A stretch of DNA of 64,000 bases, taken from contig JABTUV010000011.1 in assembly GCA_015075175.1 (NCBI GenBank), forward strand, positions 1-64,000. The letters are read 5' to 3'. Under the pieces are notes generated by a model. The model did no database searches, had not been told where the DNA came from, and worked only from the letters and a program-made list of their open reading frames with translations. The stretch is from a bacterium (GTDB lineage Bacteria > Hinthialibacterota > Hinthialibacteria > H5-UNCL2). This document shows positions 22,215-51,369 of the stretch, piece after piece (positions within the stretch are counted from its first letter, which is position 1; the number at the start of each line of letters is the position of its first letter). A program made the position numbers and the translations under genes.

Positions 22215-22227
22215 ATAGGAGACGGTC

Positions 22228-22461
22228 ATGTGTCTGGCGGTTCCGGTCAAGCTGGTCAGCAAGGACGGCGCGCGGGGAGAGATCGAACTCTCCGGCGTGC
22301 GCCGTCGCGCCGATCTGCGCCTCCTGCCCGACGCTGCGCCCGGCCAGTACGTGCTCTTTCACGCCGGTTTCGCCATTCAAGTCGTCGATGAAACCTATTA
22401 TCGCGAATATTGGCAGCTGCGGAATCAATTCGAGGAGCTGAAGCGTGCCGGACAAGCCTAA
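22228..22461 (+). CDS. hypC: hydrogenase maturation chaperone HypC
   Basis: The 77-residue protein begins MCLAVPVKL with the essential Cys2, and has GEIELSGVRRRADLRLLPD and GQYVLFHAGFAIQVVDE. HypC carries the Fe(CN)2CO unit with HypD and docks to the large subunit precursor. ATG follows AGGAG closely. Its last codons overlap the hypD start. Confidence 0.95.
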   Translation: MCLAVPVKLVSKDGARGEIELSGVRRRADLRLLPDAAPGQYVLFHAGFAIQVVDETYYREYWQLRNQFEELKRAGQA

Positions 22462-35472: not shown

Positions 35473-36736
35473 ATGGTTCGCCTGCGCCTTGAGGACTTCC
35501 TGGGAGAGAATCCCGAGATCGCCGGGATCCGCCGGCATCTGCCGCGCTTGGCGGCCAGCCGCCTGCCCATCCTCATCCACGGCGAAACCGGCACGGGCAA
35601 AACCATGCTGGCCGCCATCATCCACGATCTCTCCGCCTGCCGCTGCGGCCCCTACGTGCATCTGGACTGCGGCGCCATGGTCGAAGACCTGGTCGCCAAC
35701 GAACTCTTCGGGCACGTGCGCGGCTCCTTCACCAGCGCAGACCGCACCCAGTCGGGATTGATCGAGCAGGCCCGCGGCGGCACCCTCTTTCTGGACGAGC
35801 TGGGCAACCTCAGCTTCGAGGCCCAGACCAAGCTCCTGCAAGTGCTGGACGAGGGCAGGTTCCGGCGCGTGGGCGGGACGGAGGAAATCGAAGTCGAGGT
35901 GCGCGTCATCGGGGCCAGCAGCCGGCCGCTGCAACGCTACGTCGAGGAGGGACGCTTCCGCAAGGACCTCTACTACCGCCTGAAGGGTCTACGCCTCTCT
36001 CTACCGCCGCTGCGGCAGCGGCGCGAGGACATCGTCCTTCTCTTCAAGTATTATCTTGCGCAATACAGTCAGGCGGCCGACCGCTGGGCCGCTGCGGTCT
36101 CACCGCGACGCGCGCGAGATGCTCGTCAACCATCCCTGGCCCGGCAACGTGCGCGAACTCATGCGCCTGGCCGAGGAACTGGCCTGCCTGCACGACCTCG
36201 AGTACATCACTGCCGCCGACCTGGCCGCCTACGACCTTTCCTCCCTCTGCTGCTGGCAGATCAAGCGCTGCGAGCGGCGCGACTGTCCCGCCTACGGCCG
36301 CAGCGACCATCGCTGCTGGCTCATCCCCGACACCCTGGGTCCTGACGGCTGTCCCCACGGCCTGCCCGAGAAGCTCCACTACCGCCTGCACTGCGAGGTG
36401 TTCGTCTCCAGTTGCGCAGAAATCGCGGGCAAGAGCGACGCGGATCGCTTCGAGTTCCTGTCTCAGCAAGTGCGGGGGTGGTGCCAGGCGCCGGTTCCGC
36501 CGGTGCTGGCCGACGGCGGGTATCGCCTGGATCAGATGACGTTCCGGCAGTTCCGCAACCAGGTCGTGGCGGGGTCCATTCGTCACTACCTGGCGACCAT
36601 CTTGCGCAACACGGGCGGGAGCGTGGAGGATGCCTGCCGCGTCTCCGGCCTGTCGCGCAGCACGCTCTACCAGATGCTGAGGGCGCATGGGCTGGCGATT
36701 GAGGACTTCAGGCCGCGCGGGGTCGGGGAGGGATAG
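35473..36736 (+). CDS. sigma54-dependent activator with CW-type cysteine sensor segment, one frameshift
   Basis: The N-terminal AAA+ domain has Walker A HGETGTGKTMLA, a GAFTGA-loop variant (RGSFTSAD), Walker B GTLFLDELGN and FRKDLYYRLKGLRLSLPPLR. Near 36080-36110 the frame changes, and the protein resumes with AREMLVNHPWPGNVREL. An unusual insert follows: CCWQIKRCERRDCPAYG, then HRCWLIPDT and C-x-V-F, a CW-type cysteine cluster as seen in anaerobe sensor proteins. A Fis-type HTH ends it (ACRVSGLSRSTLYQMLRAHG). There is no receiver or GAF domain, so sensing probably uses the cysteines (metal, Fe-S or redox). It lies directly upstream of the sigma54-promoted hydrogenase operon. Confidence 0.85.
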
Positions 36737-37007: not shown

Positions 37008-37024
37008 TTGGCATCGTTATTGCT
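37008..37024 (+). promoter_or_regulatory. sigma54 (-24/-12) promoter of the hydrogenase operon
   Basis: TTGGCATCGTTATTGCT matches the TGGCAC-N5-TTGC consensus, with GG at 37010-37011 and GC at 37022-37023, exactly ten bases apart. Transcription would start near 37035, about 30 bp before the GTG start of the first operon gene. An adjacent sigma54 activator gene supports the call. Confidence 0.85.
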
Positions 37025-37063
37025 TTCACGAGTCTCACGACGTTCATGCTGGAGAGATCCATC

Positions 37064-38125
37064 GTGCGTACAGACTTCCTACCGTATGCGCGACTGCCGG
37101 AGTTGCGGGCTGTGCTGGAGGGGCGCTATCGCGTGGTCTGGCAGGAAGCGGCACGGGCGCCGGGCAACGCAGCCTGTCGCCGCCGAGCGCCTGCAAGTCG
37201 CTGGAAAGCCCGCGCCCTCCATATTCCGTCCGGGGCGGATTTTTTCCGCCCCTGCGCGAGGAAGTGGCCGAGTTTCCCGTGGGCGACGCCGGCCGCACCC
37301 GTCGCGCACCAAGCGCCTCCCCGAACGGACAAGCCGCTCGCCCTGGTGAACCTGCGGCCCTGCGACCTGGCCGCATTGCGCATCCTGGACGATGTCTTCC
37401 TCTCCGGCGACGTCGTGGATCCATTCTATCAAGCCCGCCGCCAGTCCACCCTGATCGTCTCCGTGGATTGCGTGACGCCGGCGCCGACCTGCTTCTGTCA
37501 TCTCGTGGGCGGCGCCCCGTTCACCGACGCGGGCATGGGCCTTCATCTCTCGCCGCTGGCCACAGGATACCGGGTGCACGCGGACAGCGACGCGGGCGAG
37601 CGCATGATCACCGAGTTGGCACTGGCCCCACCGGAATTGCGCGAGGAGGAGGAGCTGCCTGCCCGCCGCCAGGCGGCGATGGAGGCTCTGGCCGCCGCCA
37701 ACCAGCGCTTCACCCTGACCCGCTCTCCGTATACGACGGTGGCGGAACGCGCCGCCTCGGACCGGTGGCAGGACCTCTTCGCCGGCTGCGTGGAGTGCGG
37801 CGCCTGCTGCCGCGTCTGTCCCACCTGCTACTGCTTCTATCTCTTCGACGAGCTGACCGGGGGCGGGCAGGAGGCGCGCTGCCGGCGTTGCCGCACCTGG
37901 GACAGCTGCATCACCGCGGACTACGCGCGTATGGCCGGCCCTCCCAACGCCAAGCCCAATCCCCGGCCGCGCCTGCGCACGCGCTTCGCCAACCGTTTCG
38001 ACCACAAGTACCGGTTTCATTATGAAACCAGCGGGGAGTACGCCTGCGTGGGCTGCGGACGCTGCGCCGAGGTCTGCATGGCCCGCTCCGATCCCCGTGA
38101 AGTCCTGCGGGTGCTGGAACAATGA
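37064..38125 (+). CDS. sulfhydrogenase beta-like Fe-S subunit, internal frame changes
   Basis: The start is GTG 37064 after GGAGAG. The protein begins RTDFLPYARLPELRAVLEGR, and from about residue 90 reads LALVNLRPCDLAALRILDDV, TLIVSVDCVTPAPTCFCHLV, CVECGACCRVCPTCYCFYLF and CVGCGRCAEVCMARSDPREV. This is the HydB-type layout with an N-terminal domain and two C-terminal [4Fe-4S] clusters. Between about 37150 and 37330 the conserved text (FPPLREEVAEFPVGD) lies in another frame, so at least two compensating indels are present. It should relay electrons between the flavin subunit downstream and the hydrogenase. Confidence 0.8.
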   Translation: MRTDFLPYARLPELRAVLEGRYRVVWQEAARAPGNAACRRRAPASRWKARALHIPSGADFFRPCARKWPSFPWATPAAPVAHQAPPRTDKPLALVNLRPCDLAALRILDDVFLSGDVVDPFYQARRQSTLIVSVDCVTPAPTCFCHLVGGAPFTDAGMGLHLSPLATGYRVHADSDAGERMITELALAPPELREEEELPARRQAAMEALAAANQRFTLTRSPYTTVAERAASDRWQDLFAGCVECGACCRVCPTCYCFYLFDELTGGGQEARCRRCRTWDSCITADYARMAGPPNAKPNPRPRLRTRFANRFDHKYRFHYETSGEYACVGCGRCAEVCMARSDPREVLRVLEQ

Positions 38126-38943
38126 TCACTTTCAACCCCTACGCTCCCCGACTGTGCAAGCTGGTCGAAGTCAAGACCGAGACTCCGACCATCAAAACGT
38201 TCGTGCTGGAAATGCCCGAGCCGTTTCACTTCCGCGCCGGCCAGTTCATCGAGCTGACGCTGCCGGGCGCGGGTGAGGCGCCCTTTACCCCCTCGTCCTC
38301 TCCCCTCGAACACGACCGCCTGGAGACGACCGTGATTCGCACCGGCAGCATGACCGACCGGCTGCACGAGGTCGAGCCGGGCGCCTGGCTGGGCGTGCGC
38401 GGGCCTTTCGGCAAGGGCTACCCGATCGAGAAATACCGCGGCAAAGAGATTCTCGTGGTGGGCGGCGGCTGCGGGTTGGCCCCCTTGCGCTCGCTCATCT
38501 ACCAGCTTCTTTCCGAATCCTACCGTTACCGCCGCATCTCGATCAAGTACGGCGCGCGCGAGCCGGACGAACTGCTCTATCGCGATAGCTACGCGACGTG
38601 GACGGCGGAACGGCCCAACGTGGACTTCACCTGCACCGTGGACGCCGGCGCCCCCGGTTGGACGGGTCGCGTCGGCTTGGTCACCACGCTCCTGTCGGGC
38701 CTCGATCTCAGCCTGCCCGACACGGTCGCCTTCGTGTGCGGACCCGAGGTCATGCTCAAGTTTGTGACGCTGACGCTGCTCAAGGAAGGGCTTTCGGCGG
38801 AGCAGATTTATCTCTCGATGAACCGCCGCATGAGCTGCGGCATCGGCCAGTGCGGGCGTTGCAGCATCGGTCCCTACTATCTGTGCAAGGACGGCCCGGA
38901 CATGAACTACGCGGCCATCCAGCAGTACGAGAACGTCTTCTGA
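38122..38943 (+). CDS. sulfhydrogenase gamma-like FAD/NAD(P)-binding subunit
   Basis: The 273-residue protein is of the ferredoxin-NADP reductase type: FAD domain (EMPEPFHFRAGQFIELTLPG), the NAD(P) domain start EILVVGGGCGLAPLRSLIY, then VAFVCGPEVMLKFV. It ends with a [2Fe-2S] cysteine set in RRMSCGIGQCGRCSIGPYYLC. In group 3b hydrogenases this subunit exchanges electrons with NAD(P)H. ATG overlaps the previous stop by 4 bp. Finding it in front of a group 4 membrane hydrogenase suggests NAD(P)H can feed, or be made by, the complex. Confidence 0.9.
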   Translation: MITFNPYAPRLCKLVEVKTETPTIKTFVLEMPEPFHFRAGQFIELTLPGAGEAPFTPSSSPLEHDRLETTVIRTGSMTDRLHEVEPGAWLGVRGPFGKGYPIEKYRGKEILVVGGGCGLAPLRSLIYQLLSESYRYRRISIKYGAREPDELLYRDSYATWTAERPNVDFTCTVDAGAPGWTGRVGLVTTLLSGLDLSLPDTVAFVCGPEVMLKFVTLTLLKEGLSAEQIYLSMNRRMSCGIGQCGRCSIGPYYLCKDGPDMNYAAIQQYENVF

Positions 38944-38958
38944 ACCGGGAGGAGCCTC

Positions 38959-40695
38959 ATGCAGACGGGAGTGATCGGCCATTGCAGCTTCTGTTCGCTC
39001 TGCTGTCCCATGACGGCGGAACACTGGTGGGCGGCGCATTACTGGTCGGCCCCGGAGACGGAAGAGGCGGGCCGGCATGGGCTGTGCGCGCGGGGCGGCA
39101 GTCTCTTTTCGCTCCTGGAGAATCCGGCGCGCGCGCGCGGCGGCGTCTTGCGCCGGGAGGAGCAACAGACGCGCCTCTATGGCGAGGCCGTCGTGCACGC
39201 CTTCCAGCGGCTGGTGGAGGAGGCCGGCCGATCGGGACGCATGGCCGTGCTTCTGGACGGCAACCTGCCCTGCGAGGACCTGGTCGCCGCGCATGAGTGG
39301 GCGAAGGCGCGGGGAGACGCCGTGGCCGCGGTTTACCTGCCTGCCGGCGATTTCGATCTCTTGGACGGACTGTCCGCGGGGGAGGCGGTGGTGCGCGGTG
39401 CGCACCCTACGGGGGAGGCGGTGGTGCGCGGTGCGCACCCTACGGGGGAGGTGACGGTGCGCGTTGCACAGCCGGCGGAGTGTGGCGCCATGCTGATCGT
39501 GGGCGATGCGCTCTCGACGCATCCCGCGCTGGCCCGTCCGCTCTTGGACGCCAAGTACGCGCGTCCGGGCCGGCCCATCCTGGTCATGGACACTTTCGCC
39601 TCCCGCACCATGCGCTTCGCCGATCTCGCCCTGACGGTCGAGCCGGGCGGCCAGGAGGCGCTGCTCGGCGCGTTGCGGCGCGCGCTGGCGGGCGAGACCT
39701 CGGCGATAGCGCACGTCGCCGCGCTCGGCCACACGGACACCAAACTGGTCGAGCGCGCGCTGGGTCGCCTCGCGAGCGCCGCCAAGCCGCTCGTGGTCGT
39801 CTCCCCCGAGCCGACCAAGGCCGAGGATTGGCGCGGCATCGGCGCGGCCGCCGCCCAACTGGCGGCGGACACGTTCGGCTCGGTCCTGCCGCTTTACAGC
39901 TACGGCAATGCGCTCGGCGCCTATCGCGTGCATCGCAATCTCGGCATGCCGCGCTTCGAGTCGCTCCTCTCCATGCGCGATCCTGACTGGTCGCTCCTGG
40001 TTTTCGTGGGTTGGGACCCAACGCTCACCTTTCCCGTCGAGCTTCTGCGGCCGCTGCATCGGCGTTTTCCCCGAATCGTGGCGCTGTCTCCGGTCGAAAC
40101 GCCGGCCTGGCGGGCGGCGGACCTGGCGGCGGCGATGCCGCTGCTGCTGGAATACTCCGGCCACGTGGTGCGGCGACGGAAGCGAAGTCGAGCTTCGCTG
40201 GCGCTGCTGCTGATGGCCGGCGTCTGTCGGGTGCGCGACTTCTTCGACGCCGGCGGCGCGGAGCTCCCGACGGCATGGCGCGAGACGCCCGCCCCCGCCC
40301 CGCGCGTCGCGCCCGCGGCCTCGACCGCGGCGTCCCGCGGATTCTGTCTCCTGGCGGCCTCCAGCACCCTGCACTTCTCCGACGGCGCTCTCACGCGCCA
40401 GGCCGCCGCCACTCAACATCTTTCCGGTGAGGACGCGCTGCGTATCAGTCCCGCCGCCGCCCGCCGGCTCAATCTGCGCGAGGGGCAGCGCGTCTCCATC
40501 CGGCGCGACGGCCTGGAACTGTCGCTCGCCTGCGAACTGGACGCCGCCCTGCCGGCCGAGCTGGCGGTTGCCCCGCTGCACCGACCCGAAGTGCGGCGCT
40601 TTCTGCCCTGGCGCCTGGATGCCTCCGGCCCGCGCCTGTCGTGCGTCGCCCCCGCCGTCCAGATTTTCCCGCTGGCCGAAGAAGGAGCCGCCTAG
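38959..40695 (+). CDS. molybdopterin-oxidoreductase-like Fe-S subunit (NuoG/FwdB-like)
   Basis: The 578-residue protein has an N-terminal [4Fe-4S] motif (HCSFCSLCCPM, then GLCARGG), a MopB-like middle (MLIVGDALSTHPALARPLLD, ARPGRPILVMDTFASRTMRF, LLVFVGWDP) and a C-terminal molybdopterin-dinucleotide-binding-like domain (LRISPAAARRLNLREGQRVS). I see no Sec/Cys/Ser ligand in the usual FdhF position, so it may lack a working Mo centre and only carry electrons, as NuoG does. Residues ~140-165 (two VVRGAHPTGEA blocks) are coded by two RAYT-family REP units in frame. GGGAGG precedes the ATG. Confidence 0.75.
   Translation: MQTGVIGHCSFCSLCCPMTAEHWWAAHYWSAPETEEAGRHGLCARGGSLFSLLENPARARGGVLRREEQQTRLYGEAVVHAFQRLVEEAGRSGRMAVLLDGNLPCEDLVAAHEWAKARGDAVAAVYLPAGDFDLLDGLSAGEAVVRGAHPTGEAVVRGAHPTGEVTVRVAQPAECGAMLIVGDALSTHPALARPLLDAKYARPGRPILVMDTFASRTMRFADLALTVEPGGQEALLGALRRALAGETSAIAHVAALGHTDTKLVERALGRLASAAKPLVVVSPEPTKAEDWRGIGAAAAQLAADTFGSVLPLYSYGNALGAYRVHRNLGMPRFESLLSMRDPDWSLLVFVGWDPTLTFPVELLRPLHRRFPRIVALSPVETPAWRAADLAAAMPLLLEYSGHVVRRRKRSRASLALLLMAGVCRVRDFFDAGGAELPTAWRETPAPAPRVAPAASTAASRGFCLLAASSTLHFSDGALTRQAAATQHLSGEDALRISPAAARRLNLREGQRVSIRRDGLELSLACELDAALPAELAVAPLHRPEVRRFLPWRLDASGPRLSCVAPAVQIFPLAEEGAA
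39390..39443 (-). repeat. two RAYT-family REP units inside the MopB-like gene
   Basis: Hairpin-plus-CTAC units lie at 39390-39410 and 39423-39443, a 33-bp (11-codon) period that keeps the frame. A degenerate third unit follows (GGTGACGGTGCGCG). The sequence matches the arrays beside the RAYT gene. Confidence 0.93.
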
Positions 40696-41181
40696 ATGGA
40701 GATTACCCGGCGCGTGCTCGTCAACGTGGACCGCTGCATCGACTGCAAGGCTTGCTTCGTCGCCTGCTTTGACGGCCATCACGGCGAACCCATCATTCAC
40801 CATGCGCCCGGGCCTTACGGCTTCCCCATCCTGTGCCGGCAGTGCGAGGAACCGACGTGCGTGGCCGCCTGTCCCTACGGGGCGATGGAGCGCGACCCGC
40901 ACGGAGTGGTCTTGCGGCGGCTGCCCATGTGCCGGGCGTGCTGGTCGTGCGTTCCCGCCTGCCCCTTCGGCGCCATCGACGCGGCGATGGTGGAACGGCG
41001 CGTGGCCAAGTGCGACTTGTGTGAGGATCGCGTGCTGGCCGGCGGGCGCCCCCGTTGCGTGGCCGCCTGTCCCGCCGGCGCGCTCGAGTTCGTCGAAGTC
41101 GCCGAGGCGGATCTGGAACAGCGCGGCCTCTTTGTCATCGCCGGCCGCACTCTTGGCAAGGACCTGTGGAGACGGCGCTAA
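40696..41181 (+). CDS. HycB/HydN-like four-cluster ferredoxin subunit
   Basis: The 161-residue protein has four cysteine groups: CIDCKACFVAC, CRQCEEPTCVAACP, CRACWSCVPACP and CDLC...CVAACPAG, the layout of HycB/DmsB-type polyferredoxins with four [4Fe-4S] clusters. It likely links the MopB-like subunit to the hydrogenase core. ATG directly follows the previous stop. Confidence 0.9.
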   Translation: MEITRRVLVNVDRCIDCKACFVACFDGHHGEPIIHHAPGPYGFPILCRQCEEPTCVAACPYGAMERDPHGVVLRRLPMCRACWSCVPACPFGAIDAAMVERRVAKCDLCEDRVLAGGRPRCVAACPAGALEFVEVAEADLEQRGLFVIAGRTLGKDLWRRR

Positions 41182-41184
41182 GGC

Positions 41185-41233
41185 GGAGTACAAACTTCAG
41201 TTTGTCTTCGAGCAGGCTGAAGCCTGTACTCCT
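41185..41233. repeat. GGAGTAC...GTACTCC palindromic element
   Basis: It contains two 14-bp palindromes, CAAACTTCAGTTTG and CAGGCTGAAGCCTG, between GGAGTAC and GTACTCC ends. Copies are at 46178-46225 and 51322-51369. It lies between the electron-input genes and the hydrogenase core genes. Confidence 0.9.
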
Positions 41234-41259
41234 GGAAACGTCATAAGAAAGGGAGCGAG

Positions 41260-42186
41260 ATGGCGCAGGCGTTGGGCATCTTCGTGGCGGGCACGCTGGG
41301 GACCATGGTCCTGGGGCTGTTGTCCAAGTGGTTCGACCGCAAGCTGACCGCGCGCGTGCAGTATCGCGTGGGTCCGCCCCTTCTCCAACCCTTTTACGAC
41401 ATCCTCAAGCTCCTGGGCAAGGAGACGCTCGTTCCAGCCGACGCGCGTCGCAGCGGATTCCTCCTGGCGCCGCTGGTGGGCCTGTCGGCGACCGCCGTCG
41501 CCGCCGGCATCCTGTGGGCGAGCGCCGTCAACCCGGCGGGCGCGTTCGTCGGCGATCTCATCGTGCTCCTTTACGTCCTCACGCTGCCCTCGCTCTCGCT
41601 GGTCGTAGGCGGAAGCGCCTCCGGCAACCCCTTCGGCGCGGTAGGCGCCAGCCGCGAGATCAAGCTCCTCATCGCCTACGAGCTGCCGCTGATCACGGCC
41701 ATCGTGACGGCCCTGGTGCATGCGGAGGCCTGGAGTTTCCGGCTGGCGGACCTGGCCGCCCACCAGGCGGCCCACGGCCCCATCGCGGCGAGCCTCTCCG
41801 GCGCCCTGGCGCTCCTCGTGTCTCTCTTCTGCATCCAGGCCAAGCTGGGCCTCGTGCCCTTCGACACCGCCGAGGCCGACACCGAACTGATGGGCGGCGT
41901 GCTCGTCGAGTACTCGGGGCCGCCGCTGGCGCTCATCCATCTCTTCCGCGCCATGCTCCTGGCGGTCCTGCCCATGCTCCTCATCACCGTGTTTCTTGGC
42001 GGAATACGCCTGAGCTGGCCGGGCATCCTGGGCACGCTCCTGGCCTACCTGCTGATTCTGGTCTTCGTCGTGCTCCTGCGCAACACCAACCCCCGCCTGC
42101 GCATCGACCAGGCGGTGAAGTTCTTCTGGCTGCTCTTGTTTCCCATTGCGATGCTGGCGCTCATTCTGGCGCTGGCGGGATACTGA
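41260..42186 (+). CDS. hydrogenase membrane subunit, NuoH/EchB/MbhM-like
   Basis: The 308-residue protein has about eight helices and conserved complex-I-like loops: RVQYRVGPPLLQPFYDILKL, GNPFGAVGASREIKLLIAYE, LGLVPFDTAEADTELMGG and EYSGPPLALIHLFRAM. It anchors the peripheral arm and forms the first part of the ion path. GAAAGGGAG precedes the ATG. Confidence 0.93.
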   Translation: MAQALGIFVAGTLGTMVLGLLSKWFDRKLTARVQYRVGPPLLQPFYDILKLLGKETLVPADARRSGFLLAPLVGLSATAVAAGILWASAVNPAGAFVGDLIVLLYVLTLPSLSLVVGGSASGNPFGAVGASREIKLLIAYELPLITAIVTALVHAEAWSFRLADLAAHQAAHGPIAASLSGALALLVSLFCIQAKLGLVPFDTAEADTELMGGVLVEYSGPPLALIHLFRAMLLAVLPMLLITVFLGGIRLSWPGILGTLLAYLLILVFVVLLRNTNPRLRIDQAVKFFWLLLFPIAMLALILALAGY

Positions 42187-42203
42187 GAAGAAGGAGAGAG
42201 GGC

Positions 42204-42641
42204 GTGAACTGGCGAATCTGGGCGTTGCAGAAGTCTCCGTGGGTTTATCACGTGAACGCGGGGGCGTGCAACAACTGCGACATCGAGGTGCTTGAGTTGT
42301 TGACGCCGCGCTTCGACGTGGAGCGGTTCGGGATCACGCTGGTGGGCAGCCCGCGGCACGCCGACGCCCTGCTCGTGTCCGGCATCTGCACGCGTCAGAT
42401 CGCCCCACGCCTGCAGGACCTTTACGCGCAGACGCCGAAGCCCTGCGTGGTCTTCTGCATCGGGACCTGCGCCTGCGCCCGCGGCATCTTTCACGACTCC
42501 TACCACGCCGCCGCCGGCCCCGTGGACGAGGTCATCCGCGCCGTCGATCCGGCGGCCACCATTCTCTACATCCCCGGCTGTCCGCCCAAGCCGGAGGCCA
42601 TGATCCTGGGCGTAGTCAAGGCGCTGCGCGCGCTGGCTTAA
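42204..42641 (+). CDS. hydrogenase small subunit, NuoB/EchC/MbhJ-like
   Basis: The 145-residue protein has the proximal [4Fe-4S] ligands in GACNNCDIEVLELLTPRFDV, CIGTCACARG and IPGCPPKPEAMILG. It is the short group 4 form without a Tat signal. The GTG at 42204 follows AAGGAGAG. It passes electrons to the NiFe site of the large subunit. Confidence 0.93.
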   Translation: MNWRIWALQKSPWVYHVNAGACNNCDIEVLELLTPRFDVERFGITLVGSPRHADALLVSGICTRQIAPRLQDLYAQTPKPCVVFCIGTCACARGIFHDSYHAAAGPVDEVIRAVDPAATILYIPGCPPKPEAMILGVVKALRALA

Positions 42642-42661
42642 CCGCAAGGAGTAATGCGAAC

Positions 42662-43126
42662 GTGAGCCTGCAAACCGACCACGAAACGAGCACGGGAGCG
42701 CCGGCGCAGAAGCTGGAGCGCGGCCTGGGCCCGCGCCTCCTGCGATTGGAGCAGCCGCATCCCAACCGCATCTATCTCACCGTCGCCCCCGGCGACCACG
42801 TGGCCGCCGCCGTCTTCCTCTTCGACGAGCTCTCCGCCCGCCTGGCCACCGCCTCCGCCGTGGACCATCGCGACCATCTCGAAATCAACTACCACTTCGC
42901 GCTGGACGGCGACCGCTGCGTCGTGACCGTCAAGACCTTCGCGCCCAAGCCCGAGCCCCACCTGGAATCGCTGGCGCGCATGATCGCGGGAGCGGAGTGG
43001 ATCGAGCGCGAGATCGCCGACCTCTTCGGTTGCCGTTTTGACGGTCATCCCCGGCCCGAGCGGCTTATCCTGGCCGACGACTGGCCCGCCGACCGCCATC
43101 CCCTCCGCCGCGGAGGCCCCTCATGA
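42662..43126 (+). CDS. hydrogenase NuoC/MbhK-like 30-kDa subunit
   Basis: The 154-residue protein corresponds to the NuoC-like domain that is fused in HycE but separate here: HLEINYHFALDGDRCVVTVK, EWIEREIADLFGCRFDGHP and ERLILADDWP. GTG 42662 follows AAGGAG. It overlaps the large-subunit start by 4 bp. Confidence 0.9.
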   Translation: MSLQTDHETSTGAPAQKLERGLGPRLLRLEQPHPNRIYLTVAPGDHVAAAVFLFDELSARLATASAVDHRDHLEINYHFALDGDRCVVTVKTFAPKPEPHLESLARMIAGAEWIEREIADLFGCRFDGHPRPERLILADDWPADRHPLRRGGPS

Positions 43127-44304
43127 CCCGCACCGTCTTGCCCATCGGTCCCTTTCATCCTCTGCAGGAGGAAGCCGAGTTCTTCCAACTCTACGTCGAC
43201 GGCGAGACCGTCGTGGACATGGACGTGCGCATCTCCTACAACCATCGCGGCATCGAGGACATCTCCACCCGTCGCACCTTCGACCAGGTCCCCTACCTGG
43301 TCGAGCGGGTGTGCGGCATCTGCTCCGCCAGCCATCCCCTGGCTTACATCCAGGCGGTCGAGGAACTGGCGGGAATCACGCCGCCGGAGCGCTCCCTCTA
43401 CCTGCGCACCATCGTCAACGAGTTGGAGCGACTCCACAGCCATCTCCTCTGGGTCGGGCTGGCGGGACACTTTCTCGGCTACAACACCGTCTTCATGTGG
43501 GCCTGGAAATACCGCGAGCCGGTACTGGACCTGCTCGAAGCGACCACCGGCAGCCGCATCAACTACGCCAACGCCAAGATCGGCGGTTCGCGCCGCGACA
43601 TCCCCAACGAGCTGGCGCCGCGCATCCTCTCCGTCCTCTCCGAGCTTGAGGGCAAGCTGGAGATGCTGACGGGGGCGGTGCTGGACGATTACGTCCTGCA
43701 TCTGCGCACCAAGGGCGTGGGGGTGCTGTCGCGGGAGGATGCGCGCGACTATTGCGTGACCGGTCCGACGGCGCGCGCCTCGGGAATCGCCATCGACGTG
43801 CGGCGGGACGATCCCTATGCCGCTTATGACCGCATCGAGTGGAACGTGATCAGCGCGGCCGAGGGCGACGTGTTCGCCAAGGCCAAGGTGCGGCTGTTGG
43901 AGTGCTTCGAGTCGATCAAAATCATCCGGCAGTGCGCGCGGCAGTTGCCGGAGGGTCCCATCGAGGTTCCCGTCGCGGCGATTCCGCCGGGCGAGGCGGT
44001 GGGGCACGTGGAGGCGCCGCGCGGCGAAACCTTCCATTACGTCGTGTCCGACGGCGGACCCTGCCCGGCGCGGCACAAGGTGCGCGCGCCCAGCTACGTC
44101 AACATCCCCTCCTTCAAGGCGGCCTGCGTGGGCCAGCCGCTGGCGGACGTCACCATCGCGCTGGCGGCCGTGGACCCCTGTTACAGTTGCACCGAGCGGC
44201 TGGCGGTCGCGCTGGACGCGCGCACGCGCCGCCCGCTTTACACGTTCGACGATCTCGTGCGGCTCTCGCAGGAGAAGACCGCGCGCCTGGCCCGGGAGGT
44301 GTGA
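43123..44304 (+). CDS. group 4 [NiFe] hydrogenase large (catalytic) subunit
   Basis: The 393-residue protein keeps both nickel-iron ligand pairs: C64/C67 in ERVCGICSASH and C353/C356 in DPCYSCTER. This separates it from NuoD, which has lost them. The 34 residues after TER match the removable C-terminal tail of HycE-type precursors, consistent with the HycI-like protease gene at the operon end. Other family segments are YNHRGIEDISTRRTFDQVPY and IVNELERLHSHLLWVGLAGH. Reaction: 2H+ + 2e- = H2. The exact subgroup (4d Mbh-like, 4g or other) needs phylogeny. Confidence 0.95.
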   Translation: MTRTVLPIGPFHPLQEEAEFFQLYVDGETVVDMDVRISYNHRGIEDISTRRTFDQVPYLVERVCGICSASHPLAYIQAVEELAGITPPERSLYLRTIVNELERLHSHLLWVGLAGHFLGYNTVFMWAWKYREPVLDLLEATTGSRINYANAKIGGSRRDIPNELAPRILSVLSELEGKLEMLTGAVLDDYVLHLRTKGVGVLSREDARDYCVTGPTARASGIAIDVRRDDPYAAYDRIEWNVISAAEGDVFAKAKVRLLECFESIKIIRQCARQLPEGPIEVPVAAIPPGEAVGHVEAPRGETFHYVVSDGGPCPARHKVRAPSYVNIPSFKAACVGQPLADVTIALAAVDPCYSCTERLAVALDARTRRPLYTFDDLVRLSQEKTARLAREV

Positions 44305-44309
44305 GCCCC

Positions 44310-46193
44310 ATGCCCGATGTACCTCCAATGTTGGTCCCCGTCGTAGTCGCGCTGGTCGTCGGGGCCGGATGTTGGCTCCTGGGGCGCCGCTCGCCCGCGC
44401 TCTCCGGCGGCCTTACCCTGGCCGCGGCCGTCTGCATCGCGCTGGCCTGCGCGCAACTGTGGCGGCAGGACGAGCCGCTGGAGTCCGTCATCCCCTTCTT
44501 CGCCATGCCGACCGTAACCTTGCAGATCGCCCTGAAAAGTACGATGCTGGGCGGTTTTCTGGCTTTCGTCGCCGCCGCATTCACCGCGCTCATCGCGCTC
44601 TTTTCGCTCGGCTATCGCGGGACCGTCCAGAACCCGGGCAAGTTCTGCGCCTATCTCCTGTGGAGCAACGCCGCCGCCCTCGGCGTGTTTTACGCCAACG
44701 ATTTTCTCTTTCTGCTCTTCTGTTGGGAGGCGCTGTCGGTCCTCCTGTATCTGCTGATCGGGCAAGGGCGAGAGGAGAGGGCGCCGGCGGCGGCGGCCAA
44801 GAGCCTGGCGGTGCTGGGCTTCTCGGACGGCTGCCTGGTGCTGGCCGTGGTGCTGGCGCTGGCGAGCAGCGGCGGCGCGCGCATGGACCAGTTCCACGTG
44901 GCGATGGGCGGCGCGGGCAGCTACGCCATGTACGGCCTCTTTCTGGTAGCGGCGCTGGCCAAGGCGGGCGCCTATCCGGTCCACACCTGGCTGCCCACCG
45001 CCTCAGAGGGCGCTCCCATCTCCGTGATGGCCTTTTTGCCCGCCGCCCTCGACAAGCTTTTGGGCATCTATCTCCTGGCGCGCATCTCCTTCAACTACTT
45101 CACGCTGGACGGCGCGCTCTCGACCCTCCTGCTTATTTTGGGGATGGTCACGATTCTATCCGCCGTGTTCATGGCCATGATCCAACACGACCTGCCGCGC
45201 CTGCTCTCCTTCCACGCCGTCAGCCAGGTCGGCTACATGGTGCTGGGTCTCGGGACCGGCAACCCAATCGGCATCGTGGGCGGGCTGTTCCACATGCTCA
45301 ACCACGCCATCTACAAGTGCTGCCTCTTTCTGTGCGCGGGCAAGCTGGAGAATCGCACCGGACAGTTGGAATTGGATCGACTGGGCGGGCTGGCGCGGGT
45401 CGCGCCGACCGCCTTCATCGGCTGCGTGATCGCGGCCATGGCGATTTCGGGGATTCCCCCGCTCAACGGCTTCGTCTCCAAGTGGATGATCTACCAGGGC
45501 GTCCTGTCGATGCAATCGCCCCTGGGTGCGATCGCCATGGTCGTCGCGGTATTTGGCAGCGCGCTGACGCTGGCATCGTTCGTCAAGGTCGTTTACTCGT
45601 GCTATTGGGGCGCGGCGTCCGATGGTCTCGTTATTAGGAGCGAGCCGCGGCCCTGGGCGACCGGCGTGCCCATCGCGGTGCTGGCAGGACTCTGCATCCT
45701 GCTGGGCGTCTGGGCCTACGCGCCCGTCAACTTCCTGTCGTCGGTCGCCGAGTTCGACCTGCGCGGCGGCGTCGCGCCCGCCTTTGCCGGCGAGACGCTG
45801 GCGCCCGCCTCCGGTTTCTGGAGCCCGACGACCGCGACCGCGCTCATCCTGGTCGGCCTCGCGCTGGGTCTTCTGCTCTATGCCGTTACACGCACGCTGA
45901 AGTTTCGCAGCGTGCCCAATTTCGTCTCGGGCGAGCGCCTCTCCGGCACCGCCGTGCGCTACTCCGGCGCCTCGTTTTACAGCACCATCCGCGAACTGCC
46001 CGTCCTCTCCGTCATGTACACGGACGGCGAGGCCGGCGTCTACGATCCGTATCGCCTGGGGGGACGCTACGGCTACAGCCTGGTGCAAACCCTGCGCCGC
46101 CTGCACACCGGCGTGCTGCTCGTCTATCTCTCGTGGTGCATTCTCGGGCTGGCGCTGATTATGGGATTTCTTCTGGCGGAGTACAGGCTTTAG
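44310..46193 (+). CDS. NuoL/HycC/HyfB-like proton-translocating subunit
   Basis: The 627-residue protein has about 14-16 helices and the antiporter core: LFCWEALSVLLYLLIGQGRE, AALAKAGAYPVHTWLPTASE, QHDLPRLLSFHAVSQVGYMV and FHMLNHAIYKCCLFLCAG, including the key Glu and Lys residues. It is one of two such subunits in the operon, so the complex has at least two ion channels. Its last codons and TAG stop (EYRL-stop) are supplied by a GGAGTAC-type palindromic repeat. Confidence 0.92.
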   Translation: MPDVPPMLVPVVVALVVGAGCWLLGRRSPALSGGLTLAAAVCIALACAQLWRQDEPLESVIPFFAMPTVTLQIALKSTMLGGFLAFVAAAFTALIALFSLGYRGTVQNPGKFCAYLLWSNAAALGVFYANDFLFLLFCWEALSVLLYLLIGQGREERAPAAAAKSLAVLGFSDGCLVLAVVLALASSGGARMDQFHVAMGGAGSYAMYGLFLVAALAKAGAYPVHTWLPTASEGAPISVMAFLPAALDKLLGIYLLARISFNYFTLDGALSTLLLILGMVTILSAVFMAMIQHDLPRLLSFHAVSQVGYMVLGLGTGNPIGIVGGLFHMLNHAIYKCCLFLCAGKLENRTGQLELDRLGGLARVAPTAFIGCVIAAMAISGIPPLNGFVSKWMIYQGVLSMQSPLGAIAMVVAVFGSALTLASFVKVVYSCYWGAASDGLVIRSEPRPWATGVPIAVLAGLCILLGVWAYAPVNFLSSVAEFDLRGGVAPAFAGETLAPASGFWSPTTATALILVGLALGLLLYAVTRTLKFRSVPNFVSGERLSGTAVRYSGASFYSTIRELPVLSVMYTDGEAGVYDPYRLGGRYGYSLVQTLRRLHTGVLLVYLSWCILGLALIMGFLLAEYRL

Positions 46194-46225
46194 CCTGTCT
46201 GATTTCAAACTGAAGTTTGAACTCC
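46178..46225. repeat. GGAGTAC palindromic element at the NuoL-like/Mrp junction
   Basis: CAGGCTTTAGCCTG and CAAACTGAAGTTTG palindromes lie between GGAGTAC and ACTCC. It forms the 3' end of the NuoL-like gene and the spacer before the Mrp-type genes. Confidence 0.88.
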
Positions 46226-46245
46226 GCAAGAAAAAGGAGGACGCG

Positions 46246-46806
46246 GTGACGGCTATCTTGATCGGACTCTTTGCGCTGCTCATCTTCATGATCGTGGCGT
46301 GCCTGATCGCCATCGAGACGCGCGACCTCCTGTCCGCGGTCGTGTGCGTGGGGGCGGCCGGCTTCGGACTGGCGCTGGCGGACCTCTTACTCTCCGCGCC
46401 CGACCTGGCCTTGACGCAGATGGTGGTCGAATTCATCTGCGTGGTAGTCCTGATCCGCGTGGTCGTGACGCGCCAGGACCACACGCACGAGACGCCCAAG
46501 GACACGTTCGCCTTGGCAGCGGTCGTCCTGTGCCTGGGGCTGTTTCTGGCTGCCTGCGGGTTCACCTTCGCGGCCCTGCGGCCCTTCGGCGCGCCCCTCT
46601 TCGCCGGGCCGGAACCGACCATGGCGGGCCAGTACGTGGCGCACGGCCTGCCCGACACCGGCGCCGTCAATTACGTCACCAGCATTCTTCTCGACTTCCG
46701 CGGCTACGACACGCTGGGTGAGGCGACCGTCATCTTCGTCTCCATCATCGGCGCCTACGCGGTCCTGAGAAGCGTGGGGAGGATCGGCCATGCAAGCCAC
46801 AAGTGA
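46246..46806 (+). CDS. DUF4040/MbhD-MbhE-like Mrp module subunit
   Basis: The 186-residue membrane protein fuses a DUF4040 part (LLSAVVCVGAAGFGLALADL, APDLALTQMVVEFICVVVLI) with an MbhE-like part (GAVNYVTSILLDFRGYDTLG, EATVIFVSIIGAYAVLR). These correspond to the C-terminal portion of MrpA. GTG 46246 follows AAGGAGG. Together with the NuoL-like gene before it, it replaces a full MrpA. Confidence 0.88.
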   Translation: MTAILIGLFALLIFMIVACLIAIETRDLLSAVVCVGAAGFGLALADLLLSAPDLALTQMVVEFICVVVLIRVVVTRQDHTHETPKDTFALAAVVLCLGLFLAACGFTFAALRPFGAPLFAGPEPTMAGQYVAHGLPDTGAVNYVTSILLDFRGYDTLGEATVIFVSIIGAYAVLRSVGRIGHASHK

Positions 46807-47248
46807 GAGCGGGGGCGGCCTGTCCCCCATCGTAAAGACCGTCGCGCGCTGGATGGCGGGCTTCATCCTCGTGTTCGGTCTGTCGGTCGTGCTCTACGGG
46901 CACCTGACGCCGGGAGGCGGATTCGCGGGCGGAGTCGTGCTCTCGGCCGCCTTCATCCTCGTGGTACTCTCCCACGGCAGGAGGGAGGTCCTGCAGATAC
47001 TGAGCGAGCGCGCGCCCACGATCTACGACGGCCTGGCCGCGCTGGCCTTTCTCCTCCTCGCCGTACTGGGCTATGCCGCGGGCGGATTCTTCCTCAATTT
47101 CCTGCCCAAGGGACAGCCCTTCCAGCTCTGGAGCGGCGGCATCATTCCCCTCTGCAACCTGGCCATCGGCGTGAAGGTCGGCGCCTGCCTCTTCGGCGTC
47201 TTCGCCGCCCTCGCCGTCTTTCGCCATCTGCATCAAAGGAGCGCGTGA
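46790..47248 (+). CDS. mnhB: Na+/H+ antiporter subunit MnhB/MrpB
   Basis: The 152-residue protein has four helices and the MnhB motif YGHLTPGGGFAGGVVLSAAF, plus GGIIPLCNLAIGVKVGACLF. It overlaps the preceding gene by 17 bp. It belongs to the ion-translocating Mrp module. Confidence 0.93.
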   Translation: MQATSESGGGLSPIVKTVARWMAGFILVFGLSVVLYGHLTPGGGFAGGVVLSAAFILVVLSHGRREVLQILSERAPTIYDGLAALAFLLLAVLGYAAGGFFLNFLPKGQPFQLWSGGIIPLCNLAIGVKVGACLFGVFAALAVFRHLHQRSA

Positions 47249-47619
47249 CGATCATGCCCACGCTGGACCATCTGCCCTATCTTTTCGCCATGCTACTTTT
47301 TGTGATCGGCCTTTATGCCATCGTGGCCAAGAAGAACCTGGTCAAGCTGATCCTGGGCCTGATCGTGATCGAGTACGCCGTCAACCTGTTCCTCTTGCTG
47401 CTGGGCTACCGTGGAGGCGGGGTGGCGCCGATCTTGACGCGGCGCGACGCGCCGGCGGAGTTCCTGGCGCGCACCGTCGATCCCCTGCCGCAGGCCCTGA
47501 TTTTGACCGCCATCGTGATCGGCCTGGGGACCCTCGCGCTGGTAACGGCGCTGGCCCTGCGCCTCTACGACCGCTATGGCACCTTCGACATCACCGAGAT
47601 CAAGAAGCTGAAAGGATGA
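47245..47619 (+). CDS. mnhC: Na+/H+ antiporter subunit MnhC/MrpC (NuoK-like)
   Basis: The 124-residue protein has three helices: YLFAMLLFVIGLYAIVAKKN, LIVIEYAVNLFLLLLGYRGG with the conserved Glu, and PLPQALILTAIVIGLGTLAL. Its GTG overlaps the mnhB stop by 4 bp. Confidence 0.93.
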   Translation: MTIMPTLDHLPYLFAMLLFVIGLYAIVAKKNLVKLILGLIVIEYAVNLFLLLLGYRGGGVAPILTRRDAPAEFLARTVDPLPQALILTAIVIGLGTLALVTALALRLYDRYGTFDITEIKKLKG

Positions 47620-49145
47620 GCGTCCCGATGGAAACGTTGCCGCTCTTCATCGCCATTCCGCTCGCGGTCGCCTTCCTCTTTCCGGTATTCGAGAAACTCT
47701 CGCTGCGCCGCGCCCTCCTGGACGGGCTGGCGGTCCTGGCCACCGCCGCGCTGCTGGCCGGCTCCCTCGGCCTGCTCGCCCAACCCGACCGCGTCTACTG
47801 GATCGGCGGCTGGGCGCCCCCCGTCACCGGCATCAACCTGGTCTCCGACGGCCTCTCCCGCCTCATGCTGGTCGTGGTCCAGGCCATCAGCTTCTTCTCC
47901 ATCGTCTTCTCCCTGCGCTACATGGACCGTTACAGCTCGCGCGGTTTCTACTACGGCCTCTTCTTTCTCCTCCTGGCGGGCATGAACGGCGTGGTGTTGA
48001 CGGGCGACCTCTTCAACCTGTTCGTGTTCATCGAGATCGCCGCCATCGCGTCCTATGCGCTGGTCGCCTTCGGCTGCGAGAGCGAGGAGCTGGAGGCGTC
48101 GTTCAAGTATCTCGTGCTGGGTTCGGTCTCCTCGGCCTTTATTCTCCTGGGCGTGGGTATGCTCTACAACCTGACGGGCACGCTCAACATGGCGGAAGTG
48201 GCGGCCAAGGCTCCGGCGCTTTCCGGCCTGCCCATCATGGCCATGGTCGGCGCGTGCTTCCTTTTCGGCTTCGGACTGAAGGCGGCCATGGTCCCCTTCC
48301 ACGCCTGGCTGCCGGACGCCCATCCCTCCGCGCCCGCCCCCATCTCCGCCATGCTCTCGGGCGTCCTCATCAAGGCCGGCGGCGTCTACGTGCTGTTTCG
48401 GCTGTTCTTCTCCGTATTCGGCATGGACCTGCTCTACGCCCGCGTGTTCATGGCGCTGGGAGCGGTCTCGATGCTCATCGGAGTGCTGCTGGCCGTGGGG
48501 CAGTGGGACTTCAAGCGCCTTCTGGCCTACCACAGCATCAGCCAGATGGGTTACGTGCTCCTCTCGGTCGGAGTGGGAGGTGAAGTCCTGGCGCGGGGTG
48601 GACCGACGCCGGTCGCCGCCCTGGCCGTCTTCGCCGGCCTCTTCCATCTTGTGAATCACGCGGCCTTCAAGTCGCTGCTCTTTCTCTGCTCCGGTTCGAT
48701 GGAGTACGTGACCGGCACGCGGCAACTGGCGGAGATGGGCGGCTTGTCGCGGCCCATGCCCCTGACCGGCCTGGCCTGCCGCGTAGCCGCGCTCTCCATC
48801 TCCGGCATCCCGCCCTTCAACGGCTTCTGGAGCAAACTGCTCATTATCATTGCCATCGTGCAGGCGGGGCACTACGCGCTGGCGGCGCTGACCGTGCTGG
48901 TCAGCTTTTTGACGCTGCTCTCCTTCATCAAGGTGCAACGCTACGCGCTGGAAGGCCCCCTGCCCGAACTCCTGCGCTCGGTGCGCGAGGCGGGCCTGGC
49001 CATGTCGCTGCCGCTGTTGGCGTTGGCCGCCCTCTGCCTCCTGGGAGGTTTGCTCCTGCCGCTCTACGCCGGCGCTCTCTTTACTCCGGCACAGGAGGCC
49101 ATGCTCTCCGGCCTCAACTACGCGCGCGCGATCCTGGGAGGCTGA
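47616..49145 (+). CDS. mnhD: Na+/H+ antiporter subunit MnhD/MrpD (NuoN/M-like)
   Basis: The 509-residue protein is an antiporter-type subunit with about 14 helices: GDLFNLFVFIEIAAIASYAL, FGLKAAMVPFHAWLPDAHPS, DFKRLLAYHSISQMGYVLLS and FHLVNHAAFKSLLFLCSGSM. It is the second large ion channel of the complex. ATGA overlap with mnhC. Confidence 0.94.
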   Translation: MSVPMETLPLFIAIPLAVAFLFPVFEKLSLRRALLDGLAVLATAALLAGSLGLLAQPDRVYWIGGWAPPVTGINLVSDGLSRLMLVVVQAISFFSIVFSLRYMDRYSSRGFYYGLFFLLLAGMNGVVLTGDLFNLFVFIEIAAIASYALVAFGCESEELEASFKYLVLGSVSSAFILLGVGMLYNLTGTLNMAEVAAKAPALSGLPIMAMVGACFLFGFGLKAAMVPFHAWLPDAHPSAPAPISAMLSGVLIKAGGVYVLFRLFFSVFGMDLLYARVFMALGAVSMLIGVLLAVGQWDFKRLLAYHSISQMGYVLLSVGVGGEVLARGGPTPVAALAVFAGLFHLVNHAAFKSLLFLCSGSMEYVTGTRQLAEMGGLSRPMPLTGLACRVAALSISGIPPFNGFWSKLLIIIAIVQAGHYALAALTVLVSFLTLLSFIKVQRYALEGPLPELLRSVREAGLAMSLPLLALAALCLLGGLLLPLYAGALFTPAQEAMLSGLNYARAILGG

Positions 49146-49148
49146 CCC

Positions 49149-49634
49149 ATGAAACGCTTCGCCGCCTTTCCGTTGTTCCTGCTCGTCTGGATGGGCCTCA
49201 CCTGGAGCCTCCATTGGCAGGACCTCTTGGCGGGAGTGCTGGTCTCGCTGGTCGTCTGCCTGCTGGTCGGTCGCTTCGTCGCGCTGTCGGTCCTGCCCAT
49301 GCTCTCGCCGCGACGCATCTTCTGGACGCTGGTTTACCTCCCGTTCTTCTTCTACCACTGCGTGCGCGCCAACCTGGACGTGGCCTATCGCGTGCTGCAT
49401 CCCGACACGCCCATCCGTCCCGGCTTCATCCGGGTCGAGACCACGCTCCCCAGCCGCGCGGCGCGCGTCATCCTGGCCTCCAGCATCACGCTGACGCCGG
49501 GCACCCTGGCCGTCGATCTGGTCGATTCCTCGCTCTACATCCACTGGATCAACGTGCGCGGCAAGACCCACGCCGACTACCATCGCGCCGTGGTCGCGCC
49601 CTTTGAACGCATCCTCAAGGAGATATTCCGATGA
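49149..49634 (+). CDS. mnhE: Na+/H+ antiporter subunit MnhE/MrpE
   Basis: The 161-residue protein has N-terminal helices and the MnhE motif FIRVETTLPSRAARVILASS followed by ITLTPGTLAVDL and LYIHWINVRG. It completes the small-subunit set with mnhF and mnhG. It overlaps mnhF by 4 bp. Confidence 0.93.
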   Translation: MKRFAAFPLFLLVWMGLTWSLHWQDLLAGVLVSLVVCLLVGRFVALSVLPMLSPRRIFWTLVYLPFFFYHCVRANLDVAYRVLHPDTPIRPGFIRVETTLPSRAARVILASSITLTPGTLAVDLVDSSLYIHWINVRGKTHADYHRAVVAPFERILKEIFR

Positions 49635-49894
49635 ACTGGGTCTATCTTGCGGCGGCGGGGCTGTTCGTGGGCGCCTTCCTCTGCCTCTTCCGCATCGGCC
49701 GGGGTCCCAGCGCCCCCGACCGCGCCGTCGCCATCGACATCCTGGGCACGCTGGTGGTCGGCTTCTGCTGCCTGCTGGCGATTCGCACCGGCCAGGATTT
49801 TCTCATGAACATCGCCATCGCCTGGGCGCTGATGAGCTTTCTGGGCGCCATCGCGCTGGCCAAGTACCTGGAAGGGAAGGCCTTCGATGAGTAG
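49631..49894 (+). CDS. mnhF: Na+/H+ antiporter subunit MnhF/MrpF
   Basis: The 87-residue, three-helix protein has FRIGRGPSAPDRAVAIDILG, the MnhF signature, then FLMNIAIAWALMSFLGAIAL and AKYLEGK. Both ends overlap neighbouring genes. Confidence 0.93.
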   Translation: MNWVYLAAAGLFVGAFLCLFRIGRGPSAPDRAVAIDILGTLVVGFCCLLAIRTGQDFLMNIAIAWALMSFLGAIALAKYLEGKAFDE

Positions 49895-50279
49895 CGAAGC
49901 ATGGGCCGAAACGCTGATACTGATCGGAGTTCTCTTCGACCTCCTGGGCACGATCGGGCTGGTGCGACTGCCCGACGTTTACAACCGACTCCAGGCGGGA
50001 ACCAAGTGCGTGACGCTGGGGACGTGTTTCATTCTGGCGGGCGCGGCGGTGTGGGCGGGAGGGGCTTTGGCGATGAAGGCGGTGATCTGCATGGCCTTCG
50101 TGCTCTTGACCTCGCCGGTCGGCGCGCACGCCCTGGCCCGCAGCGCCTACCGCTCGGGCGTGGCCGCCTGGGAGGGAACCGTGGTGGATGACTATCGCGG
50201 GCACGTCGAGCGACTCATGCACGCGCCGACCCCCATGAAAGACGAGGCGACCGCTCTCGCGCAAACCGAAATTGCGTGA
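49887..50279 (+). CDS. mnhG: Na+/H+ antiporter subunit MnhG/MrpG
   Basis: The 130-residue protein has three helices and the MnhG pattern LLGTIGLVRLPDVYNRLQAG, TKCVTLGTCFILAGA and ICMAFVLLTSPVGAHALARS. It overlaps mnhF by 8 bp. With mnhB-F and the DUF4040 gene it makes a complete Mrp-type module, except for a full MrpA. Confidence 0.93.
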   Translation: MSSEAWAETLILIGVLFDLLGTIGLVRLPDVYNRLQAGTKCVTLGTCFILAGAAVWAGGALAMKAVICMAFVLLTSPVGAHALARSAYRSGVAAWEGTVVDDYRGHVERLMHAPTPMKDEATALAQTEIA

Positions 50280-50861
50280 GCTGCTGGAGCGACGCGCGCC
50301 CCTACGACGGCCCCTACATCGCTGCCGTTTCGGCAGCGCCGTCCGAGCTGGCGCCCGGTTTCGCAGCAAGCCCAGGTTTGACGCCGAGGCGTGCGTGGGC
50401 TGCGGCGCCTGCGCGGAAATGTGCCGCCGCCGCGCCTCACCTACGGATGACCCCCACCACTCGCCGCCCGTCCGCCGCCTGTCGCTGCGCCTGGGCGCTG
50501 CATCTTCTGCGGCCACTGCGAACTCAACTGCCTCACGAAAAAGGGCATTCATCTCACCCCGCAGTACGACCTGGCGATCTTCGATCGCCACGCGGCGGTC
50601 CAGACGCTGGAAAAGAAGCTGCTCCTGTGCGAAAAGTGCGGGGCGGTGGTGACGACCCGGGACCACTTGCGCTGGATCAGTGAAGAAGTGGGCGCGGGCG
50701 TGTACGCCAGTCCCACCCTGCTCCTGGCGCGTGAGGAGGCGCTGGGGCTGGTCGAGTTCGCGCCCCCCGAAGGCGACCGCACGCCCACGCGCGCGGATAT
50801 GATCAAGCTTCTGTGTCCGGGCTGCCGGCGCGCGGTCGTCGCGCGCGAACTGTGGGGCTGA
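50272..50861 (+). CDS. HycF/EchF-like dicluster ferredoxin, several frameshifts
   Basis: Pieces in different frames assemble a HycF-like protein: RELLERR, then SELAPGF, then RSKPRFDAEACVGCGACAEM, then GRCIFCGHCELNC and LTPQYDLAIFDRHAAVQTLE, LLLCEKCGAVVTTRD, and at the end LLCPGCRRAVVARELWG. Two [4Fe-4S] motifs plus C-terminal CxxC pairs match HycF, which links clusters to the small subunit. At least three indels are needed. Since neighbouring operon genes are intact, local sequence error is as likely as decay. It begins inside the mnhG stop. Confidence 0.75.
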
Positions 50862-50867
50862 ACGGCC

Positions 50868-51320
50868 ATGGCCGGGGTCCGCGCGTGGCGCGCTGGCGCG
50901 CGAACTGGCCCGTCCCGCGGTACTCGTGGGCATCGGCCAGCGGCTCTGCGGCGATGACGGCATCGGCCCGAGATCGCCGTCCGGCTCCACGGCCGCAGCG
51001 TCTTTGAATGCGTGGACGCCGGTCCGGCGCCGGAAAACTTCCTCGGCGCCATCGCCCGGCGCCGCCCCGCCATGATCCTGCTCGTGGACGCCGTGCGCTT
51101 TCATGCGCCTGCTGGAACCGTCCGGCTGTTCAGCGCGGAAGGCTGGCGGAGACGGACGCCAGTACCCACGGCCTCTCGCCGGGCCTGCCCTGCGCTTGAT
51201 GAGCGAACGGACGGGCGCTCGGCCCGGCTCCTGGGAATCCAGCCGCACTCTTGCGAACTCGGGGAGGGACTGTCCCCGGTCTGCCGGCGCGCCGCAACCC
51301 GCGTCTGCCGCGCGCCTCGC
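50868..51320 (+). CDS. hycI: HycI-like [NiFe] hydrogenase maturation protease, frameshifted
   Basis: Fragments in several frames give the HycI/HoxM family: LVGIGQRLCGDDGIGPEIAV, VFECVDAGPAPENFLGAIAR, RPAMILLVDAVRF, AETDASTHGLSPG and LLGIQPHSCELGEGLSPVCR, ending near 51320. The Asp and His nickel-sensing positions can be found. It would remove the 34-residue tail of the large subunit after TER. A GGAGTAC-type repeat lies at the 3' end, where the gene meets the convergent torD-like gene. Confidence 0.75.
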
Positions 51321-51321
51321 C

Positions 51322-51369
51322 GAGTCCCAGGCTTCAGCCTGCGGGGACGCAAACTGAAGTTTGTACTCC
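51322..51369. repeat. GGAGTAC palindromic element at the convergent operon junction
   Basis: CAGGCTTCAGCCTG and CAAACTGAAGTTTG palindromes separate the ends of the hydrogenase and respiratory operons. Read on the minus strand it extends the TorD frame (EYKLQFASPQAEAW) without a stop. Confidence 0.88.

Follow-up and report, generated by a model that had tools for sequence, protein, structure and literature searches.

A group 4 [NiFe] hydrogenase of Saganbacteria RX5A, described by Carnevali et al. in 2019 as 'enigmatic' and with an unknown electron donor, is encoded in a region that also specifies Mrp-like subunits, a molybdopterin oxidoreductase that the authors were unable to class as a formate dehydrogenase, cooF, asrA and asrB (PMC6349859). 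It was found to be nearest to the hydrogenases of Zixibacteria and Omnitrophica, and an Mbh-like function was guessed (PMC6349859). Group 4g of HydDB is uncharacterised and putatively ferredoxin-coupled (PMC5037454), and hydrogenases of Omnitrophota and Cloacimonadota, the same phyla as those of some relatives found here, have been called 4g (PMC8542988). In papers on uncultured anaerobes, such hydrogenases are modelled as ferredoxin-to-H2 pumps.

In the window analysed here (the whole stretch of 64,000 nucleotides, positions 1 to 64,000 of contig JABTUV010000011.1, from a bacterium of the phylum Hinthialibacterota), 16 genes on the + strand, at about 37.05–50.28 kb, encode HydB, HydG, a MopB-like protein, HycB, NuoH, NuoB, NuoC, NuoD, HyfB, MbhDE and MrpB to MrpG. 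All the genes named by the first-pass annotation are present, in order and on this strand, with neighbouring genes spaced by −17 to +78 bp. Two further genes that had escaped that annotation, both frameshifted, lie at the end of the operon and encode a NuoI/MbhN-type ferredoxin and a HycI protease; the operons of relatives run on into the same two genes. The features of the operon and its surroundings are as follows.

19863..24600, + strand: hypF, hypD and hypE maturation genes, accessory (TIGR00143, TIGR00075 and TIGR02124, over cut-offs)
35473..36736, + strand: enhancer-binding protein for sigma-54, with an apparent frameshift (match to the AAA+ part; split over two ORFs that overlap in different frames)
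37008..37023, + strand: possible sigma-54 −24/−12 promoter, TTGGCATCGTTATTGC (sole exact match in the window)
37046..38125, + strand: HydB/AsrA-like electron-transfer subunit with two [4Fe-4S] ferredoxin motifs
38122..38943, + strand: HydG/AsrB-like diaphorase with FAD and NAD(P) domains and [2Fe-2S] cysteines (PF00175, PF00970, PF10418)
38959..40695, + strand: MopB-like subunit that retains the [4Fe-4S] cysteines and lacks the catalytic Cys/Sec-His pair; scaffold similar to NuoG/StnC proposed
40696..41181, + strand: HycB/CooF-like polyferredoxin, 16 cysteines corresponding to four [4Fe-4S] clusters
41260..42186, + strand: NuoH/HycD-like membrane anchor (PF00146, E 4e-64)
42204..42641, + strand: NuoB/HycG-like small subunit with proximal-cluster cysteines (PF01058; cysteine positions)
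42662..43126, + strand: NuoC-like 30-kDa subunit (PF00329)
43123..44304, + strand: [NiFe] large subunit, NuoD-like, with RVCGIC, DPCYSC and a 34-residue C-terminal tail
44310..46193, + strand: HyfB/NuoL-type antiporter channel (PF00361; NF005086)
46246..46806, + strand: MbhD/MbhE-like subunit, C-terminal part of MrpA (PF13244, PF20501)
46790..47248, + strand: MrpB (PF04039)
47245..47619, + strand: MrpC (PF00420)
47616..49145, + strand: MrpD (PF00361)
49149..49634, + strand: MrpE (PF01899)
49631..49894, + strand: MrpF (PF04066)
49887..50279, + strand: MrpG (PF03334)
50260..50861, + strand: NuoI/MbhN-type 2[4Fe-4S] ferredoxin subunit, frameshifted (tblastn; Fer4)
~50893..51320, + strand: HycI-type maturation protease, frameshifted (PF01750 over cut-off; tblastn)

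Judged by its published description, the RX5A region has in common with this operon the hydrogenase with its Mrp-like subunits, the molybdopterin oxidoreductase, cooF, asrA and asrB, AsrA and AsrB being homologues of HydB and HydG. The operon is real, conserved and of biological interest, and it has been noted in the literature before; further descriptions may exist beyond the open-access literature. The loss of the MopB motif, a sister form free of MopB, the HycI and NuoI ends and a wider distribution go beyond the RX5A description, and new here are the catalytically dead MopB, the division of the family into two forms and where these occur, and a testable reassignment to NAD(P)H.

The core is of the group 4 type, and neither the large nor the small subunit of group 3 is found in the operon. 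Its complex I-type small subunit, 30-kDa subunit and NuoH-like anchor were all recognised, as were the MbhDE and MrpB-G components typical of the Mrp-linked core of group 4d Mbh. The tail that follows DPCYSCTER in the large subunit is as expected of a protease-processed group 4 protein, and among 81 large subunits the N-terminal Ni-Fe CxxC motif is found in 80 and the C-terminal one in all. The presence of both motifs together with a cleavable tail marks the enzyme as a genuine group 4 [NiFe] hydrogenase; the closest PDB matches of the large subunit are Mbh of P. furiosus (E 5e-83) and HycE of E. coli (1e-77). The core, MbhDE, MrpB-G and MbhN-like subunits are shared with HydDB 4g and Mbh (4d), whereas here the input end is formed by sulfhydrogenase-type HydB/HydG, HycB and, in some members, MopB. 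An in-frame TGA in related NuoD-like genes was considered as a selenocysteine codon and rejected, being the ordinary stop of a complex I NuoD (two sequences).

A large-subunit scan yielded 402 confirmed relatives, 80 of which, 60–74% identical, were kept. Most belong to Planctomycetota, others to Omnitrophota, Bacteroidota, Cloacimonadota, Zixibacteria, Fermentibacteria, Latescibacterota and further groups. The gene order is the same in 39 of the 40 loci that hold all 12 core and Mrp genes, and, once HydB, HydG and HycB are counted in, in 31 of the 32 loci that are fully resolved; the full 16-gene order with MopB recurs in four relatives (L013, L017, L040 and L084). HydB and HydG both stand ahead of HycB in 40 of the 42 loci with sufficient upstream sequence, and of the two exceptions L023 retains a HydG match and L043 has a masked stretch at this place. 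The small gaps and overlaps, together with the order kept in relatives, argue for a single transcript that includes the front genes, as the first-pass annotation had proposed. The annotation's reading as a group 4 [NiFe] hydrogenase linked to Mrp and equipped with a diaphorase of the sulfhydrogenase type is supported, and the genes form one conserved operon. The annotation's view of the exact gene set as unfamiliar is not borne out: the set recurs in bacteria of numerous phyla and had been described in 2019, and a unique gene set is rejected on both grounds. In 13 other genomes of the phylum MopB gave no match and no large subunit exceeded 40% identity, so that the distribution is patchy.

Two forms of the operon can be distinguished. 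MopB is absent in 45 loci and present in 12 loci as well as in the window; the interval between HydG and HycB is shorter than 300 bp in most relatives and accommodates the MopB-like gene in the 12. On the large-subunit tree, the label of MopB presence requires only three changes, and the MopB-bearing rows, except that of Zixibacteria, fall in one clade, which also holds one MopB-free row and rows without upstream sequence. The Mbh and HycE references are on long branches that make any deeper placement unsafe, so that no HydDB subgroup is claimed.

For the MopB-like subunit itself, a Pfam search with the single ORF gave no match at E 0.001, and a scan of genome contigs that used just this protein ended with no confirmed relative, presumably owing to its strong divergence. 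The gene in the window includes an in-frame insert of a 33-bp tandem repeat in three copies (39377..39475, + strand), which is absent from the MopB relatives in the alignment. With a profile built from 10 members, matches were obtained to F420-dependent formate dehydrogenase (2e-45) and further formate dehydrogenases, to NuoG of complex I and to StnC (8oh5_C, 1e-29, with about 430 residues aligned). In the AlphaFold model (pLDDT 74, pTM 0.79), the N-terminal 45 residues are modelled poorly; structural alignment of the model gives Z ~23 for formate dehydrogenases and Nap and Z 22 for NuoG. The formate dehydrogenase/NuoG fold is clear from these values, the ranking among the families is not.

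Both this fold and the best sequence match of the profile would suit a hydrogenlyase fed by formate or another substrate, with MopB as the catalytic dehydrogenase, similar to the group 4a/4b FHL-Mrp enzymes, with which the operon shares HycB and a MopB-fold protein ahead of a group 4 core. Nevertheless, this explanation is very improbable. Nine of the 10 members retain all four [4Fe-4S] cysteines (the tenth has Asp in place of Cys at one position), but the catalytic Cys/Sec-His pair is found in none of the 10, and the profile aligns Pro-Pro at the catalytic position, as in 'YVPPSD'. Furthermore, the 45 relatives with the same core and no MopB indicate that this subunit is not essential to the family, and the authors of the 2019 study could not class its counterpart as a formate dehydrogenase (PMC6349859). 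An active formate dehydrogenase is rejected by the loss of the motif and by this dispensability, and the further donor that the first-pass annotation had considered finds no support in MopB either. With the cluster ligands and the fold kept but the catalytic pair missing, MopB is probably an electron wire or scaffold similar to NuoG or StnC. The operon thus differs from formate hydrogenlyase (4a/4b) in lacking the formate dehydrogenase catalytic motif and in possessing an NAD(P)H-type diaphorase. In turn, an inactive FdhF/MopB-fold domain on the electron path from NAD(P)H is a feature in common with the StnABC transhydrogenase, where the FdhF domain of StnC has been reported to be catalytically inactive (PMC10482914), and with NuoG of complex I, although the flavoprotein module and the terminal site are different.

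The front pair is homologous to the beta and gamma subunits of group 3b sulfhydrogenase, although the scores stay under the NCBIfam equivalog cut-offs. HydB matches the profiles NF040829 ShyB, TIGR02910 AsrA and Fer4_22, the score against ShyB (128 bits) being far under the equivalog cut-off of 690, and it matches the beta subunit of P. furiosus sulfhydrogenase 1 (9nez_B) at E 1e-27. HydG matches the gamma subunit (9nez_C) at E 4e-48, with the four C-terminal cysteines aligned. This diaphorase pair is shared with P. furiosus SHI (9nez), but it accompanies a membrane group 4 core here and soluble group 3 large and small subunits there. The same genome also contains a separate group 3b sulfhydrogenase operon (L105:4939-9555, on contig C49 at about 116.9–121.5 kb) with HydB, HydG, HydD, HydA and a protease, in which HydA is broken by an in-frame stop. 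Since that enzyme has its own HydB and HydG, to which those of the operon are 36 and 41% identical, the pair described here looks dedicated to the membrane hydrogenase. This, together with the resemblance of HydG to the sulfhydrogenase gamma subunit, makes NAD(P)H the most probable soluble partner on the basis of homology and gene order.

We consider it reasonably probable that this membrane-bound, Mrp-linked group 4 [NiFe] hydrogenase acts reversibly as an NAD(P)H:H+ oxidoreductase that translocates ions, and we propose that it would in effect be a complex I-like machine in which [NiFe] is the end point in place of quinone. In the single complex that we infer, electrons from NAD(P)H would enter at the FAD and [2Fe-2S] cluster of HydG and pass to the [4Fe-4S] clusters of HydB, then to HycB by way of the one cluster in the catalytically dead MopB, and from there through the NuoI-like and NuoB-like clusters to the [NiFe] site of the large subunit. 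The redox step would be coupled via NuoH to the HyfB/MrpD-type channels and the Mrp module. The potentials of NADH (about −320 mV) and H2 (−414 mV) allow little ion pumping from NADH to H2, and H2 formation from NAD(P)H comes out as roughly thermoneutral or uphill except where H2 is low. Consequently, the enzyme would be expected either to oxidise H2 with export of ions when H2 is high, or else to release H2 from NAD(P)H at the expense of the ion gradient.

Ferredoxin could also enter directly, via the NuoI-like subunit. In a version of this idea that we regard as possible but rather unlikely, the enzyme would be a ferredoxin-driven Mbh/4g hydrogenase with HydB, HydG and HycB as an NAD(P)H side branch, giving a three-way hub of ferredoxin, NAD(P)H and H2. 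The NuoI/MbhN-type subunit carried by relatives is consistent with it, as are the putative ferredoxin coupling of 4g in HydDB (PMC5037454) and the Mbh-like function guessed by Carnevali et al. (PMC6349859). However, HydB and HydG occur in practically all testable relatives, beyond what a side branch would need, and profile searches recognised no known bifurcating flavoprotein among the genes of the operon. The NAD(P)H-linked reading itself has the 4g ferredoxin label of HydDB, the possible entry of ferredoxin at the NuoI-like subunit, the low HydB score and the frameshifts of NuoI and HycI counting against it.

These frameshifts bear on the state of the locus in this genome. The NuoI-type gene, compared by tblastn with intact copies from loci L005, L013 and L017, runs in frame 1 to ~50490 and in frame 3 from ~50496. 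HycI gives its PF01750 match with neighbours in frame. In HydB, the reading frame is locally wrong in the middle of the N-terminal part, with homology at ~37207–37287 in frame 1 and the remainder in frame 2. If the apparent frameshift of the upstream regulator and the repeat insert within MopB are added, the locus could be a recent pseudogene cluster whose hydrogenase no longer works. Such decay appears doubtful, in view of the twelve intact genes from NuoH to MrpG and the intact hypF, hypD and hypE; moreover, the in-frame stop in HydA of the group 3b operon hints at sequencing error, and the contig, longer than 1 Mb, would fit long reads. The frameshifts in NuoI and HycI may be either assembly errors or real decay. 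The maturation set comprises hypDEF and the tail of the large subunit, with the operon's own HycI frameshifted, and with both NuoI and HycI affected, the function of the hydrogenase in this strain is uncertain.

For the family as a whole, the chances appear evenly balanced that it constitutes a widespread and physiologically distinct class of respiratory hydrogenases, Mrp-coupled H2:NAD(P)+ ion pumps whose NuoEFG module is replaced by a sulfhydrogenase diaphorase together with an inactive scaffold of the formate dehydrogenase fold, and that many 4g-like enzymes listed as 'ferredoxin-coupled, putative' would be linked to NAD(P)H. If this is true for a large set of them, the predicted energy yields change, and so does the H2 threshold that separates hydrogen production from its consumption by these bacteria. 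The natural occurrence of forms with and without MopB also makes it possible to test how a subunit that has lost its catalysis turns into an electron wire, parallel to NuoG of complex I.

Control by sigma-54 was rejected as a trait of the family. The possible promoter is not conserved upstream of the operons of relatives, and the activator gene is not beside the operon in most of them, being a local element outside the conserved operon. Five tandem 22-bp repeats (TTCGGTCGAAATGACATGGGGA, 35102–35211) lie immediately 5' of the activator gene. Related intergenic repeats with palindromic halves, REP-like and of the form GGAGTACAAACTTCAGTTTG...CAGGCTGAAGCCTGTACTCC, are located between operon genes (41182–41232 and 46175–46245) and 3' of the protease gene (51328–51388). 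Homologues of the glycolate oxidase subunits GlcD and GlcF are encoded directly 3' of the hyp genes, at 24722–27805. On the opposite strand, at 52004–57191, there is an operon of the type II DMSO reductase family with alpha (TIGR03479), beta (TIGR03478) and heme-b gamma subunits, adjoined by a TorD-like chaperone reading frame without its own stop.
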